This document shows positions 59,198 to 64,000 of a stretch of 64,000 nt of DNA, piece by piece. Position 1 is the stretch's first letter. Each line of letters opens with the position of its first letter. The stretch is from contig JAJNNC010000006.1 of NCBI GenBank assembly GCA_021730635.1, forward strand, positions 423,364 to 487,363. Reading direction: 5' to 3'. Source of the DNA: Catalimonadaceae bacterium JC749. GTDB taxonomy: Bacteria > Bacteroidota > Bacteroidia > Cytophagales > Cyclobacteriaceae. The notes beneath the pieces are model-generated. The model did not search any database and had not been told where the DNA came from. It worked only from the letters and a program-made list of their open reading frames with translations. The translations under genes were made by a program, and so were the position numbers.

Positions 59198-60604
59198 ATG
59201 CGAATACCTGTTATTTTTCTCAACGCTATGGACCCTAGGGGGGATCATCTGAAATTAGTGCTGAAAGATTTCCCACCCTCTCTGAAAAAAGAACTTGTCC
59301 ATTTTCACCTAATCCGTCAACAAGCAGGCAATTTACTCCTTCTACGTGACGAAAATCACATACGCCAGCTTTCGGATTATTTTAGGGGTAGGGTTATGAT
59401 AAATACTTCGTATCTGTACAAAAAGGGCATCAAAGTTCCTGAGCGTGCGGTCAGTCTTATCCCCGGCAAGCCCAAGCCGGCCATCAGCACTTTGTATTTG
59501 TTGCCCATCACCCATGAAGGCAAATTGTTTCTCAAAATACAATTCAGGTATCAGAGGCAACTTTACCGCCTCTTATCTCAGGCAGAAGGTGTGCGGTGGA
59601 GCCAGACTTACCGTTGTTTTCTCACACACTTTTCAGAGGCCAGTATCATGAACTTATTGGACAATATAAAAGGGGTAGCCCGTTTAGCTTTGAACAGTAA
59701 GGTGACAATCAATAGTCTGGAATTACAAAAAGCACTGTGGGAGCAGCAACTCCTGGCAGGTAGTAAGACTTGTTCATTGCACCTATTGGAAATTATGAAG
59801 CTCAAAAACTACAGTTTCAACACCGTAAGAACCTATCATGCTTTGATCCTCAAATTTCTGAATGCGACCTCCCTCCCACTAGAAATCATTCATGACTATG
59901 ATGAAGCAGAGATCAACCGGTACCATACCGCACTAAAAGAAAAGGGAGGGTATTCTGTATCCTATGTGAATCAATCTATTAATGCTATTCAATTCTATTA
60001 TCATCATTGTGTCAAAAGACCTTTGAATCTACAACAGGTATTCAGGCCTAAAAAACCAGCTACTTTACCCAAGATATTATCCAGACAAGAAATCGAAGAA
60101 ATATTTAGAATGACAGACAATCCTAAACATAAATCAATGTTGCTGATTCTGTATTCTTCCGGTTTAAGGGCAGGTGAACTGTTGAATCTAACATGGGATG
60201 ATATCAGTCTTGCGGAACGCAAAATTCACATCAAGGCAGCAAAGGGCTGTAAAGACAGGTATAGTATACTTTCTCAGAAGGCCTGTCATTTATTAGGACA
60301 GTACAGAAAATCTTACCGCACAAAATATTATGTGTTTGAGGGGCAATATGGAGGGAAATATTCTTACAGGAGTCTGCAACAAATTTTCAAAAGATCTTTG
60401 CAGCGTGCTAATATCACTAAACCCTATACACTTCACTGTCTTCGACATTCATTTGCTACACATTTACTGGAAGCTGGTACAGATTTACGCTATATACAAC
60501 AGCTACTCGGGCATAATTCCTCCAGGACCACTGAAATATATACCCATGTATCTATGCAAGCACTACATAAAATTATAAGTCCTGCAGATTCTTTGAACAT
60601 ATGA
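59198..60604 (+). CDS. Tyrosine recombinase, candidate integrase of the cassette array
   Basis: A 468-residue site-specific recombinase. Residues 1-188 are an extra region, including a domain with WSQTYRCFLTHFSE at 134-147, not found in classic integron integrases or XerC/D. Residues about 190-280 are the SAM-like core-binding domain (KNYSFNTVRTYHALILKFL). The catalytic domain carries Arg324, Lys349, His413, Arg416, His439 and the nucleophile Tyr448. Lys-to-His spacing is 64 residues, close to XerD (72) and far from IntI1 (about 106), so the integron-specific insert is absent. It is followed in the same direction by attC-bordered cassettes, so it is the natural candidate for moving them. A start at residue 11 is possible. 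Confidence 0.88.
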   Translation: MRIPVIFLNAMDPRGDHLKLVLKDFPPSLKKELVHFHLIRQQAGNLLLLRDENHIRQLSDYFRGRVMINTSYLYKKGIKVPERAVSLIPGKPKPAISTLYLLPITHEGKLFLKIQFRYQRQLYRLLSQAEGVRWSQTYRCFLTHFSEASIMNLLDNIKGVARLALNSKVTINSLELQKALWEQQLLAGSKTCSLHLLEIMKLKNYSFNTVRTYHALILKFLNATSLPLEIIHDYDEAEINRYHTALKEKGGYSVSYVNQSINAIQFYYHHCVKRPLNLQQVFRPKKPATLPKILSRQEIEEIFRMTDNPKHKSMLLILYSSGLRAGELLNLTWDDISLAERKIHIKAAKGCKDRYSILSQKACHLLGQYRKSYRTKYYVFEGQYGGKYSYRSLQQIFKRSLQRANITKPYTLHCLRHSFATHLLEAGTDLRYIQQLLGHNSSRTTEIYTHVSMQALHKIISPADSLNI

Positions 60605-60765
60605 AAACCATAAAATCTAAGCATTTATATGTACGCCATTACATTATGTTAAATGTCAAAACTTACTGCAAAAAAAGGGCAGATTATTCTTTAAATTTAT
60701 CTTATCTTATAATTAATATAATATATTTAACTGCTACTATAGCGTATATACATTAGTTGTGTGTG
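60605..60765 (+). promoter_or_regulatory. Candidate attI recombination site and cassette promoter region
   Basis: AT-rich sequence between recombinase and first cassette. The first cassette begins at GTTGTGTGTG (60756-60765), with cutting expected after the G at 60756. No attC stem lies upstream, as expected for an attI. AACT (about 60729) and AGTT (60755-60758) face each other in inverted orientation and might be recombinase half-sites. TTATGTTAAAT (60644-60654) equals the XerD arm of bacterial dif sites, but no matching XerC arm at 6-nt spacing was seen. A Pc-like promoter for the cassettes may lie here. Confidence 0.45.
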
Positions 60766-60826
60766 ATCTAAGAAAGCAATTAGAATATAAACGAGTTTAT
60801 CTTTAACTTTTGAAACACCTACACAA

Positions 60827-61180
60827 ATGAAAAAGCTCTTTCTTTTTTCTGTTATTTTCGGAATCTTTTCTCTAATAATTCCTGTCATGACCAATGCTCA
60901 ACGGGTCGTAAATGATTCTCTCAAAAATGAGCTAATCGATTCTCTATCTCAAGATGAAGATTTTGAATATCTGCATTTGGGAGTATTTGATGATTTGCGA
61001 TCAGTAAAATCGAATAATTATTCAATTGAAGAATTAGAAGCAACCTCTAAGAAGTATCAAAAAATAGACGAGAATTTTAAGAAAAAATATCCAATGTTAA
61101 AATTCCTTGGTCAGGAAGAATTATTTATAGTTGAGAGCAAGGCTATTGATAATATCCGGGAAAGAAGAAAAAAGAACTGA
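60827..61180 (+). CDS. Cassette 1: small secreted protein, unknown
   Basis: A 117-residue protein with a signal peptide (LFSVIFGIFSLIIPVMTNAQ, cleavage about residue 25). The mature part is helical and charged, with SLSQDEDFEYLHLGVFDDLRSVKSN, and no Cys. It is the only gene of the first cassette, which runs from 60757 to the R'' at 61185-61194. I recognise no family. Confidence 0.72.
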   Translation: MKKLFLFSVIFGIFSLIIPVMTNAQRVVNDSLKNELIDSLSQDEDFEYLHLGVFDDLRSVKSNNYSIEELEATSKKYQKIDENFKKKYPMLKFLGQEELFIVESKAIDNIRERRKKN

Positions 61181-61184
61181 AGAC

Positions 61185-61319
61185 CACACACAACACAAGG
61201 CAGTAGCTAGCCCTAGTTAAAAGCTATCAAACGTTTTGCTCTCCAGGCACGAACAATAATTGTGGAAAGATAAACGCAAACATGACCGGGCCAGCTACTT
61301 GCCCAAATCGTTATGCCCC
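61185..61319 (+). repeat. attC-like site A
   Basis: R'' CACACACAAC (61185-61194) pairs with the first cassette's start GTTGTGTGTG. The stem is GGCAGTAGCTAGCCC (61199-61213) with GGGCCAGCTACTTGCC (61288-61303): nine and five matched bases with one extra base and one mismatch, the extrahelical bases typical of attC. R' is GTTATGCCCC (61310-61319). Total 135 bp, in the normal attC range. Confidence 0.85.
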
Positions 61320-61329
61320 ATTAAAAAAA

Positions 61330-62016
61330 ATGAAAAGATTGATATTGATACTGATGATTTGTGCAGGTTGTGGAGAACAGACAAAGCAGAACCAGAAACA
61401 AGCAGACTTTGAGAAAGATACTTCTATACAAGTAGTTAGTAATCAAGAAAGTGCTACCTCATTCGCAGAAGAGGGAAGTAATTTCATTGATCCAGAAAAA
61501 TTTAAAGTGTCTCGACAAGACTCTTTTAGTCTTGAAGATTGGTATTATGGGGCCAGACAGGACAGCTTGGTAATACTAACAAAACAAGAAATTGAGAAAT
61601 ATTTTCAAGATTCAGCTCTAAAAAACGATTTAGATAAGGATAGAGGCTTTTACTACTATTTTTCTGTTCAGGAGAATCAGAAAGATAAAGTAGTAATCAC
61701 ACTCATTGAAGAATATGATTACTGTTGTGCTGATTTATATCTCATGACTTATGATCAAAATAATAAATTGATTGGAAAAAGTAAGGTCGCAAGTAGTGTT
61801 GGGGATGGAGGTTCAGGATATGAGGAATATGGGAAATTTATTTCTGATTCAATCTATCAATTAATCCGGTTAGAGGAAACGACTTTACGAGATGATCAGG
61901 ATACAATGGAATACAAAATTGATTCAGTAGTGACTCGATTTTCAGTGGACAAGAATTTGAATTTTGAAAAGCTGGACGAAGAGAAATTTCAATGGAATAA
62001 AATTATAGCAAATTAG
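61330..62016 (+). CDS. Cassette 2: lipoprotein, unknown
   Basis: About 228 residues from the ATG at 61330, which opens a lipoprotein signal (KRLILILMICAGC, Cys about residue 15). An earlier ATG at 61282 lies inside the attC site and is not used. The mature part is acidic, with an N-terminal low-complexity region and a globular part holding EEYDYCCADLYLMTYDQNNKLIGKSKVASS. No family recognised; the look is that of a small cell-surface lipoprotein. Confidence 0.75.
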   Translation: MKRLILILMICAGCGEQTKQNQKQADFEKDTSIQVVSNQESATSFAEEGSNFIDPEKFKVSRQDSFSLEDWYYGARQDSLVILTKQEIEKYFQDSALKNDLDKDRGFYYYFSVQENQKDKVVITLIEEYDYCCADLYLMTYDQNNKLIGKSKVASSVGDGGSGYEEYGKFISDSIYQLIRLEETTLRDDQDTMEYKIDSVVTRFSVDKNLNFEKLDEEKFQWNKIIAN

Positions 62017-62026
62017 AAATGAAAAC

Positions 62027-62162
62027 GGGGCATAACAAAATGCAGTAGCTAGCCCTATTTAAAAAGTACTCGGAAACTATTTGCCCTAAGTACGAAAATT
62101 GATAGTTGAAAGATAAACGCAAACAAGGCCGGGCCAGCTACTCGCACAGGCCGTTATGCTGC
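62027..62162 (+). repeat. attC-like site B
   Basis: R'' GGGGCATAAC (62027-62036) is the exact complement of the R' opening cassette 2. The stem TGCAGTAGCTAGCCC (62041-62055) pairs with GGGCCAGCTACTCGCA (62131-62146) with one extra G and one mismatch. R' GTTATGCTGC (62153-62162). Its own R'' and R' cores, GCATAAC and GTTATGC, are fully complementary. Confidence 0.9.
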
Positions 62163-62187
62163 ATTAACTAAGAAATGATTGACATAA

Positions 62188-63081
62188 ATGAAGTTTATAA
62201 AACTGATAATCTTTTGTTTCTTTGTTCATTCTGCTTGGAGCCAACACGTCATTAGAGGTAAAGTAATTGACCCGACTGACAATAATCCTATACCTGGGGT
62301 TGATGTAATTGAAGATTCTCTTAATCAAACGGTTACCGATGAACTAGGGCAATATTCTATCACGATTAACACACTACCAACTACTTTAACTTTTTCTATG
62401 ATAGGGATGCTTACAAGGACTGTAAATGTTGGTATAGATAGTACTTTGAATGTGTTCCTGCAACCTTACATATTGATTCATTACTTTGAAAGTCAAAAAA
62501 TTGGCTTGTACCTGACATCTGGAATTACCAATAACCCGATTGGTGGGAAAGCTTATTTAACATCCCCCTACTTTCTTGATTCACGATTATTTAAGAGTTC
62601 TATTAGCTATCAGACTAATTTAGATGACAACAGATTGGTCAATGGCTCTTTATCACTGGATAATATCTTGTTTGATCAACATTTCAGCGTAGGATTAAGT
62701 TTTGCGTATCAAGAAGTAGCTCTTGGTGAGATTTATAACTTAACAAATACGTCCATTGGAATAGATCTTTGGCATCGTTATAGTCCTTTTGACCTTACTC
62801 TTGGGTATAGTAATCTTCAAATTTTGAATGCTGAAGTAGTAGAAGATTTTCATGGTCTTGTTTTGAAAGTAAGCCGATATTTTGATAAAATATTAAGATT
62901 GGAAGCATCAACCAACATTTGGATTTATAATAATCTATATGGATTTCAGGCTCAATTAGAAAGGTCATTTAATCAGCTTCATATATTTGCCAATTATCAG
63001 CAACTTGATTCGTACTCTGAATTCAATATAGGTGTAGGTTGCATGGTAACTTATATATTGAGTGATCCAAATAGATATTAA
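62188..63081 (+). CDS. Cassette 3: carboxypeptidase-regulatory-like domain plus beta-barrel, unknown
   Basis: A 297-residue secreted protein. Signal peptide (IIFCFFVHSAWSQ, to about residue 19), then a carboxypeptidase-regulatory-like domain (about 20-90: IRGKVIDPTDNNPIPGVDVIEDSLNQTVTD) as found at the start of SusC proteins, then about 200 beta-rich residues resembling a small outer-membrane barrel (FDLTLGYSNLQILNAEVVEDFHGLVLKVSRYF). No plug domain is present, so it is not a full TonB transporter. A surface role is likely. Confidence 0.78.
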   Translation: MKFIKLIIFCFFVHSAWSQHVIRGKVIDPTDNNPIPGVDVIEDSLNQTVTDELGQYSITINTLPTTLTFSMIGMLTRTVNVGIDSTLNVFLQPYILIHYFESQKIGLYLTSGITNNPIGGKAYLTSPYFLDSRLFKSSISYQTNLDDNRLVNGSLSLDNILFDQHFSVGLSFAYQEVALGEIYNLTNTSIGIDLWHRYSPFDLTLGYSNLQILNAEVVEDFHGLVLKVSRYFDKILRLEASTNIWIYNNLYGFQAQLERSFNQLHIFANYQQLDSYSEFNIGVGCMVTYILSDPNRY

Positions 63082-63085
63082 AAAC

Positions 63086-63225
63086 GCAGCATAACATCAC
63101 CTAGCCCTCAGGCAGCGTGACAATGAGCATTGGGGGATTTTTTTACCAAGCATAATCTTTGATACTCGAAAGACAGACATCAACCAAAGGCGCTGCCCGA
63201 CCGGCTAGCCTGGTCGTTGTAGGCA
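63086..63225 (+). repeat. attC-like site C
   Basis: R'' GCAGCATAAC (63086-63095) complements the R' at 62153 exactly. Stem CTAGCCCTCAGGCAGCG (63101-63117) pairs with CGCTGCCCGACCGGCTAG (63191-63208) with a bulge and an inner mismatch loop. R' GTTGTAGGCA (63216-63225). The loop sequence differs from sites A and B. Confidence 0.85.
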
Positions 63226-63231
63226 ACCTAA

Positions 63232-63735
63232 ATGAAAAATCCAAAAGACAATATTGATCTGTTAATTCTTTACAAGGTAGGTTTACAATGCGGAATTTTA
63301 GATACGACAACGCTGATAGATTTTGCCGATAACATAATCGCAAATGAAGAAGATCCAGAATATTTATTTATTGAGATCTCGCTATGTGGGAATAACAAAA
63401 GTAAACTGATTGATGTACTTTCGGAATTTACAAGAGAGTACCGCAAAAAGATTTCTGGCGAGTATCTATTTGGCGCAATACGATCCAATTATTTAAAGAA
63501 GAAGATTGACCTTGAAGGTACAGTCAGATTACTCTACAAGCTAAGGGATGAACTTGATTTAACTGACGAGGAAGAAGGTTTTATCTACAGCATAGACGAC
63601 CAATATTATCTTGCTGCCGATAATATAATTGGAACAATTGAAGATGTTGAGAATGACTTATTAAATTTCCTGGCGAACTATAGAGAGTCTGACTTAGGAA
63701 ATCGTATACCCTGGAAAGAGGTAACTGATGATTGA
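63232..63735 (+). CDS. Cassette 4: small acidic cytosolic protein, unknown
   Basis: A 167-residue protein without a signal peptide, very acidic and predicted to be helical (LIDFADNIIANEEDPEYLFIEISLCG, YKLRDELDLTDEEEGFIYSIDDQYYLAADN). The size and charge resemble immunity or regulatory proteins carried in cassettes, but no family is recognised. Confidence 0.75.
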   Translation: MKNPKDNIDLLILYKVGLQCGILDTTTLIDFADNIIANEEDPEYLFIEISLCGNNKSKLIDVLSEFTREYRKKISGEYLFGAIRSNYLKKKIDLEGTVRLLYKLRDELDLTDEEEGFIYSIDDQYYLAADNIIGTIEDVENDLLNFLANYRESDLGNRIPWKEVTDD

Positions 63736-63741
63736 AAAGGC

Positions 63742-63875
63742 TGCCTACAACATCGCGCAGCCGTCAGCCTAGCTAAAATGAGCCAGAAAGTTTGTTACTC
63801 TAAGTCACGTTATTGATATACGAACTGATAACGCAAACAAGTCCGGCCGTCGGCTCGCGCTGGTCGTTAGCGGGC
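63742..63875 (+). repeat. attC-like site D
   Basis: R'' TGCCTACAAC (63742-63751) is the exact complement of GTTGTAGGCA at 63216. Stem GCGCAGCCGTCAGCC (63755-63769) pairs with GGCCGTCGGCTCGCGC (63845-63860) with one extra G and a mismatch. R' GTTAGCGGGC (63866-63875). Confidence 0.88.
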
Positions 63876-63889
63876 ATAGGAATTAGAAT

Positions 63890-64000
63890 ATGAAGATAAG
63901 TGGTATATATTGGGATAGACTACTATTTGTATCATTACCATTATGGGTGATAGTTGCCTTAATATACCTTTTAGCCCATAATACTGAAATAAAAGATTAT
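63890..64000 (+). CDS. Cassette 5: membrane protein, N-terminal part (cut by window edge)
   Basis: The frame opens at an ATG and runs off the edge, giving 37 residues with a hydrophobic segment LLFVSLPLWVIVALIYLLA typical of a membrane anchor or signal. It lies 14 nt after the attC R' core. If the pattern holds, the cassette should close with GCCCGCTAAC. Confidence 0.6.
   Translation, partial: MKISGIYWDRLLFVSLPLWVIVALIYLLAHNTEIKDY

Follow-up and report, generated by a model that had tools for sequence, protein, structure and literature searches.

A recombinase gene and its cassettes at a contig end

The last 4.8 kb of the window, the 64,000-nucleotide stretch of the Catalimonadaceae bacterium JC749 genome analysed here, hold a tyrosine recombinase gene followed by four complete gene cassettes and the beginning of a fifth, all on the same strand. 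The right edge of the window is the end of its contig (C56 of the window genome, G000; 487,363 bases). The recombinase, a XerA-like protein of 468 residues matching Pfam PF00589 and PF13495, is encoded at 59198..60604 on the plus strand, and its gene is co-directional with its array. A stretch at 60722..60758 (plus strand), which we term attI-like solely from its position and sequence pattern, runs into the first GTT, 152 nucleotides after the recombinase, and would be the point at which cassettes enter.

The cassettes follow one another without interruption on the plus strand. Cassette 1 (60756..61309) carries an open reading frame (ORF; 60827-61180) for a protein of 117 residues with no family assignment, and cassette 2 (61310..62152) one for 228 residues (61330-62016) with no Pfam family. 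The 297-residue product of cassette 3 (62153..63215; ORF 62188-63081) has a CarboxypepD_reg-like domain, and that of cassette 4 (63216..63865; ORF 63232-63735), 167 residues long, matches DUF2247 below the cut-off. Only the beginning of cassette 5 (63866..64000) precedes the contig end. The cassettes start with GTT at 60756, 61310, 62153, 63216 and, for the fifth, 63866, and their AAC ends lie at 61194, 62036, 63095 and 63751. In each of cassettes 1-4 the opening 10-mer (GTT and seven further bases) is exactly reverse-complementary to the closing 10-mer, the opening sequences being GTTGTGTGTG, GTTATGCCCC, GTTATGCTGC and GTTGTAGGCA.

Four attC-like sites, also on the plus strand and measured here with both 10-mers included, separate the cassettes: site A (61185..61319, 135 nucleotides), site B (62027..62162, 136), site C (63086..63225, 140) and site D (63742..63875, 134). 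Their inner arms pair, with bulges, and in predicted folding the bottom strand is the more stable at all four, by 2.7-3.8 kcal/mol. An Rfam search of the window at gathering thresholds returned no match. An earlier note, made from the sequence alone, had described this arrangement of recombinase, cassettes and imperfect hairpins of 134-140 nucleotides with extrahelical bases, on one strand, together with the exact complementarity of the ends of cassettes 1-4; every part was found where it had been placed.

Further cassettes lie elsewhere in the window genome. A short pattern derived from the window sites located a second array on contig C6 where, from the contig end inward, a partial cassette and fifteen further ones lie on one strand, with sites of 61-138 nucleotides. 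The longest ORF is on the array strand in 14 of these 15, the remaining cassette (2156-2499) having no ORF of 30 codons. Of nine encoded proteins compared with family models, two make up a toxin-antitoxin-type Gp49/HTH pair, one is a DUF4279 protein and the others belong to no family above cut-off. A covariance model, R1, built from 16 sites and making no use of the cassette ends, matched 35 sites in the window genome and 33 in its sister genome (G001). It found matches in 10 of 59 genomes, four of which (G011, G014, G015 and G038) had one weak match each. R1 is narrow, finding sites in only 8 of 395 genomes of the phylum at an E value of 1e-4, and presence across the phylum was therefore judged by a recombinase profile and a detector of cassette ends. 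R1 sites also occur, singly or in clusters and with no adjoining recombinase of the family, on contigs C8, C1, C86, C23, C67, C56 (at 325682), C2, C78 and C11 of the window genome, resembling cassette clusters that have no integrase.

Cassette units and evidence of movement

The unit that these arrays share is one gene, or a pair of genes, with its own site behind it and with complementary ends. Over the window and related arrays, 111 of 119 cassette starts read GTTR and 12 of 119 read GTTRRRY, most of them picked by our own detector. The earlier note's GTTRRRY-like start thus holds in its first four positions and fails in the remainder; that note did not see that the core consensus is GTTR, nor that the recombinase is not an IntI. 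The detector selects for complementarity within a cassette, so its average of 6.54 of 7 positions is circular and was not used as proof; the sites found with R1 give the fair test. There, agreement between the ends of a single cassette reaches 6.0 of 7 variable positions in the sister genome (12 pairs) and 5.75 in G013 (4 pairs); for the ends of a single site the figures are 2.4 and 1.5, respectively.

Several identities end precisely at these boundaries. In the sister genome, two cassettes are identical over 737 nucleotides, from CGGCCG|TT to CCGTTG, and this identity takes in the hairpin after the genes and excludes the one before them; the hairpin is therefore part of the same unit as the gene before it, as it is in integrons. 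In the window genome itself, the beginning of cassette 5 is found a second time (C4:229026), with 133 of 135 nucleotides identical from GTT onward and 12 of 60 before it, and the DNA preceding this copy resembles the attI-like sites of relatives. A duplicate in another genome, G028, is identical over 563 nucleotides and has a GTT boundary on its right side only; a second pair there ends elsewhere. To judge by the sister-genome pair and the second copy of cassette 5, cassettes with exact GTT boundaries have moved recently. When the window cassettes were compared with 194 genomes of the order, long matches were confined to the window genome, which is not the picture of relatives always carrying the same genes unshuffled that the earlier note had named as counting against it.

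Antibiotic resistance genes provide a further case. In a Bacteroidota chromosome (G286), tet(X) forms a complete cassette that consists of GTTATGTGCC, the gene, GGCACATAAC and a 119-nucleotide hairpin stretch before the next cassette begins. Next in line come cassettes for a class D beta-lactamase and for aadS, also with exact 10-nucleotide complementary ends (the three together at L238:4390-7780, minus strand), and 70 nucleotides upstream lies the end of a recombinase-family fragment. The same cassette lies on a Bacteroides xylanisolvens plasmid (L236:6001-7327; NZ_CP072214.1), identical at 1327 of 1327 nucleotides, while the flanks agree at 13 of 40 positions before it and 14 of 40 after. 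In 11 of 15 plasmid records (the best 15 of 293 matching), the match to the G286 cassette opens exactly at its GTT. These GTT-bounded records, among the matches listed, come from Bacteroides, Riemerella, Empedobacter, Myroides and Sphingobacterium, and eight of the 11 matches are single pieces that end within seven bases of the cassette end. A candidate upstream site beside tet(X2) in the Bacteroides plasmid scored only 8 and is not claimed. The earlier note's view of a working or recent integron-like system is borne out by the identical 737-nucleotide pair, by cassette 5 at its second location and by the identical tet(X) cassette in two unrelated contexts.

On this evidence we consider it probable that the window holds a cassette-capture platform that works like an integron, with a XerA-like, non-IntI recombinase likely inserting and excising cassettes at GTT. 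In its design and in its evidence of movement the system is, so far as sequence can tell, an integron whose recombinase is not an IntI. We propose a model where the window recombinase itself moves the cassettes and would bind the folded single-stranded form of each site, in the way that IntI binds attC, and would cut between G and TT. A circular cassette would then join the attI-like site just behind the recombinase gene, and new cassettes would therefore enter at the recombinase-proximal end.

A different mechanism, to which we give a small though real chance, is Xer-like action on double-stranded DNA, in which short duplex sites around GTT would be joined, as in Xer-recognised resistance modules, and the hairpin would be kept for some other reason. 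Only GTTR is conserved at the cassette start, however, which is too little for a duplex site, and site length ranges across arrays from 61 to 140 nucleotides. The hairpin arms also argue against it: over 13 of the 14 R1-found sites of the sister genome (one short site was omitted), inner arms of the same site fit each other better than arms mixed between sites (12.65 against 9.32), and a site's own pairing exceeds its cross mean in 11 of 13. That the sites are dispersed repeats among which genes are shuffled by homologous recombination is very improbable: sites within a genome are alike and contigs C56, C6 and C4 all end within arrays or cassettes, as this would lead one to expect, but breakpoints fall at GTT and are not spread over the repeat, and tet(X) and cassette 5 are each also preceded by attI-like DNA that has no repeat in common with the other copy.

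A recombinase family outside IntI

The recombinase of the window falls short of the IntI family model (188 bits against a cut-off of 265) and also, at 206.4 bits, of the curated cut-off of 220 for XerA_Arch (NF040815). Its catalytic set is present (R324, K349, H413, R416, H439 and Y448). The spacing from Arg to the HxLRH motif is 91 residues, and 91-92 in the 14 sequences measured of 16 array-linked ones, the window's included; in IntI it is 133 in 12 entries and 132 in P0121. The IntI-specific domain of about 41 residues is missing, the gap in the alignment falling at IntI4 208-246. In a phylogenetic tree, 15 IntI sequences form a single clade (support 100/100) with the window recombinase outside it, and IntI and XerA-like sequences from other phyla are separated off with support of 98/92. 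The closest solved structures, by sequence and by fold, are those of archaeal XerA (5hxy and 4a8e). XerA itself, which acts on chromosome dimers, has about 290 residues. Phage records yielded only three distant relatives of the recombinase at an E limit of 1e-30.

The window protein carries an N-terminal extension of about 190 residues, with two predicted beta-beta-alpha-beta-beta-alpha-beta repeats, which the fold comparison against the PDB barely covered. This extension is a candidate stand-in for the missing IntI domain; at least one array-linked family member is without most of it. Two other recombinases (L053:1317-3008 and L058:12135-14015, both on the minus strand) have longer N-termini with W-rich motifs, matching the HARP domain at 24.3 and 21.2 bits, under the cut-off of 25. 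HARP, which binds DNA structures, had no match in the window protein and was not among the 25 of 53 families listed for 63 nearer members, which leaves it no more than a lead. In G013, an array-linked recombinase (L054:12115-16197, minus strand) is split into several separate pieces, and its array is still recognisable.

Cassettes might instead be moved by a canonical IntI encoded elsewhere, the neighbouring recombinase being a bystander. The window genome does hold one IntI above the family cut-off (C13:43538-44470; L082:13539-14471, minus strand), but it is solitary, with no site found in the 35 kb of C13:30000-65000, and has Gln at the expected first catalytic Arg. Moreover, a search of the other 58 genomes gave no IntI match at an E value of 1e-50, and six of them carry chains of four or more cassettes at the XerA-like recombinase. 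We regard the bystander scenario as very improbable, and the XerA-like recombinase beside the array as the probable mover.

The association between this recombinase family and cassettes extends well beyond the window. At an E value of 1e-60 or better, the family was detected in 121 of the 395 Bacteroidota genomes sampled and in 80 of 171 genera. Chains of four or more cassettes were found at nine of 80 named loci, among the matches listed, and all nine are at Bacteroidota recombinases; dinucleotide shuffles of those 80 loci gave none in 240. Chains downstream of the recombinase number eight cassettes in Rufibacter sp. SYSU D00344, six in Flavobacteriaceae bacterium S0862, nine in Algibacter onchidii, four in Winogradskyella ursingii, three in Flavobacterium aciduliphilum, 11 in Flavobacterium enshiense DK69, seven in Seonamhaeicola aphaedonensis, four in a Sphingobacteriales metagenome-assembled genome and five in Bacteroidetes bacterium GWF2_41_31. 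At 15 Bacteroidota loci the sequence reaches at least 5 kb downstream of the recombinase and at least 8.6 kb upstream; chains of four or more lie on the downstream side at eight of these and on the upstream side at none. Twelve other tyrosine recombinases, two IntI included, had a chain of four or more on none of 24 sides, with a detector that is tuned to the present system and would overlook arrays of the canonical kind.

Where no long chain was found, a first cassette still lies close 3' of the recombinase in 11 of 19 loci from Bacteroidota, in one of eight others and in none of 108 shuffles. A second set of 20 high-scoring loci, taken from genomes of few contigs, had a chain of four or more at six, against 2 of 200 shuffles; with first cassettes counted as well as chains, 15 loci were positive, and there shuffles gave nine first-cassette matches in 80. 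The six relatives with chains of four or more at a XerA-like recombinase are G001, G002, G013, G016, G027 and G033, and G024 has a chain of three; a chain of four in G003 (L070) overlaps the recombinase gene and was left out of the count. One Winogradskyella locus (L096) has a chain and no convincing first cassette. Two Chryseobacterium plasmids (L222 and L224) carry recombinases of the family, one of them annotated as an integron integrase, with chains of three only, which is within the range of shuffles.

The first cassette starts 35-179 nucleotides after the recombinase at 13 of 17 loci and 301-562 nucleotides after it at three, with nothing convincing at one. The 29 pre-cassette sites compared, that of C4 included, are loosely conserved, with A at -8 in 25, A at -4 in 23 and T at -9 in 21, and their T-A-rich pattern, TATAnACAnna|GTT, is also present in the window's own.

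Relation to integrons and other known systems

Several observations weigh against the proposal that a XerA-like recombinase runs an integron-like system here. The attI-like sequence is weak, an inverted repeat exceeding shuffles (at most 2 of 60) being found in 14 of 29 such sites, with the window's own not among them. Some family members have no detectable array, as the few-contig loci show, and in the tree the label 'array found' does not cluster, requiring 13 changes, a number equally low in 86 of 500 shuffles. In canonical attC, unpaired bases are confined to one arm and set the strand; over six arrays of the present system there are 27 in L'' and 39 in L'. Finally, in the Acinetobacter copy of tet(X3) described next, no 3' site was recognised.

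Of 68 plasmid records that match the recombinase, 50 are from Acinetobacter, and in the eight Acinetobacter plasmid matches listed only residues 253-468 are covered. Both such records examined, one from A. indicus (L221:6986-9007; NZ_CP041297.1) and one from an uncultured source (L223; FJ012881.1), have a truncated relative of the recombinase, annotated 'xerD/tpnF', directly before tet(X3). The interval between the two genes in the A. indicus record holds a palindrome resembling those in some attI-like sites, followed by GTTATGTGCC, and the tet(X3) copy matches the G286 cassette from the same GTT onward, at 86%. Papers on tet(X), in the portions available, report xerD or tpnF beside the gene, and one suggests testing mobilisation by XerD (PMC7473080); the spread of tet(X) on Acinetobacter plasmids has been attributed to ISCR2 (PMC7722449, in its available portion). 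ISCR2-borne spread is a later step, compatible with the reading given here.

Taking these lines together, we think it reasonably probable, though less so than the platform itself, that Bacteroidota have an integron class of their own: an integrase lineage that gained cassette capture separately from IntI and is invisible to surveys based on the IntI domain, that is home to the tet(X), class D beta-lactamase and aadS cassettes, and that drives the homology-free uptake of genes in Riemerella. It is perhaps a second origin of integrons. In several Bacteroidota orders and genera, cassette arrays are accompanied by a recombinase of a family that has no IntI domain. If its activity is confirmed, cassette capture needs no IntI domain, and integron evolution becomes testable with a second lineage. 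In addition, the mobile unit of tet(X), and of at least two other resistance genes, becomes defined for Bacteroidota, which is relevant to following their spread.

As far as the available portions of the surveys go, integron searches pick integrases by the IntI-specific domain (PMC8352920, PMC2426708, PMC9668308). The accessible part of the IntegronFinder 2.0 report mentions one complete integron from Bacteroidetes proper, located in Salinibacter (PMC9024848), and parts of PMC2426708 and PMC8618304 likewise list integrons and intI genes from the phylum. Our literature search, beyond whose reach lay subscription journals and preprints, returned no description of Bacteroidota cassette arrays run by a non-IntI recombinase.

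Among known systems, the closest in arrangement are the IntI integrons, both mobile and sedentary chromosomal. In common with them, the present system has a tyrosine recombinase adjoining a one-directional cassette array, hairpins on the 3' side of each gene, cassettes with complementary ends that move as GTT-bounded units, and cassettes of toxin-antitoxin and resistance genes. Unlike in IntI integrons, the integrase has no IntI domain, falls outside the IntI clade and is encoded co-directionally with the array, the core is GTTR and not GTTRRRY, and unpaired bases seem to occur in both arms. Archaeal XerA provides the nearest solved structures, but the N-terminal extension and the cassette arrays set the present recombinase apart from it. 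The Acinetobacter xerD/tpnF-tet(X) regions share a truncated relative of the window recombinase, whereas spread there is attributed to ISCR2. In Riemerella anatipestifer, aph(3')-IVb enters without homology, beside relE, and always with 27 bp on its 5' side and an attC-like 140 bp on its 3' side (2026; PMC13148043); in the available portion of that report, the mechanism is stated as yet to be fully elucidated and no recombinase is named. Homology-free integration with an attC-like 3' segment is what the two cases share, the naming of a recombinase is where they differ, and the system described here would, by analogy, explain the uptake seen in Riemerella.

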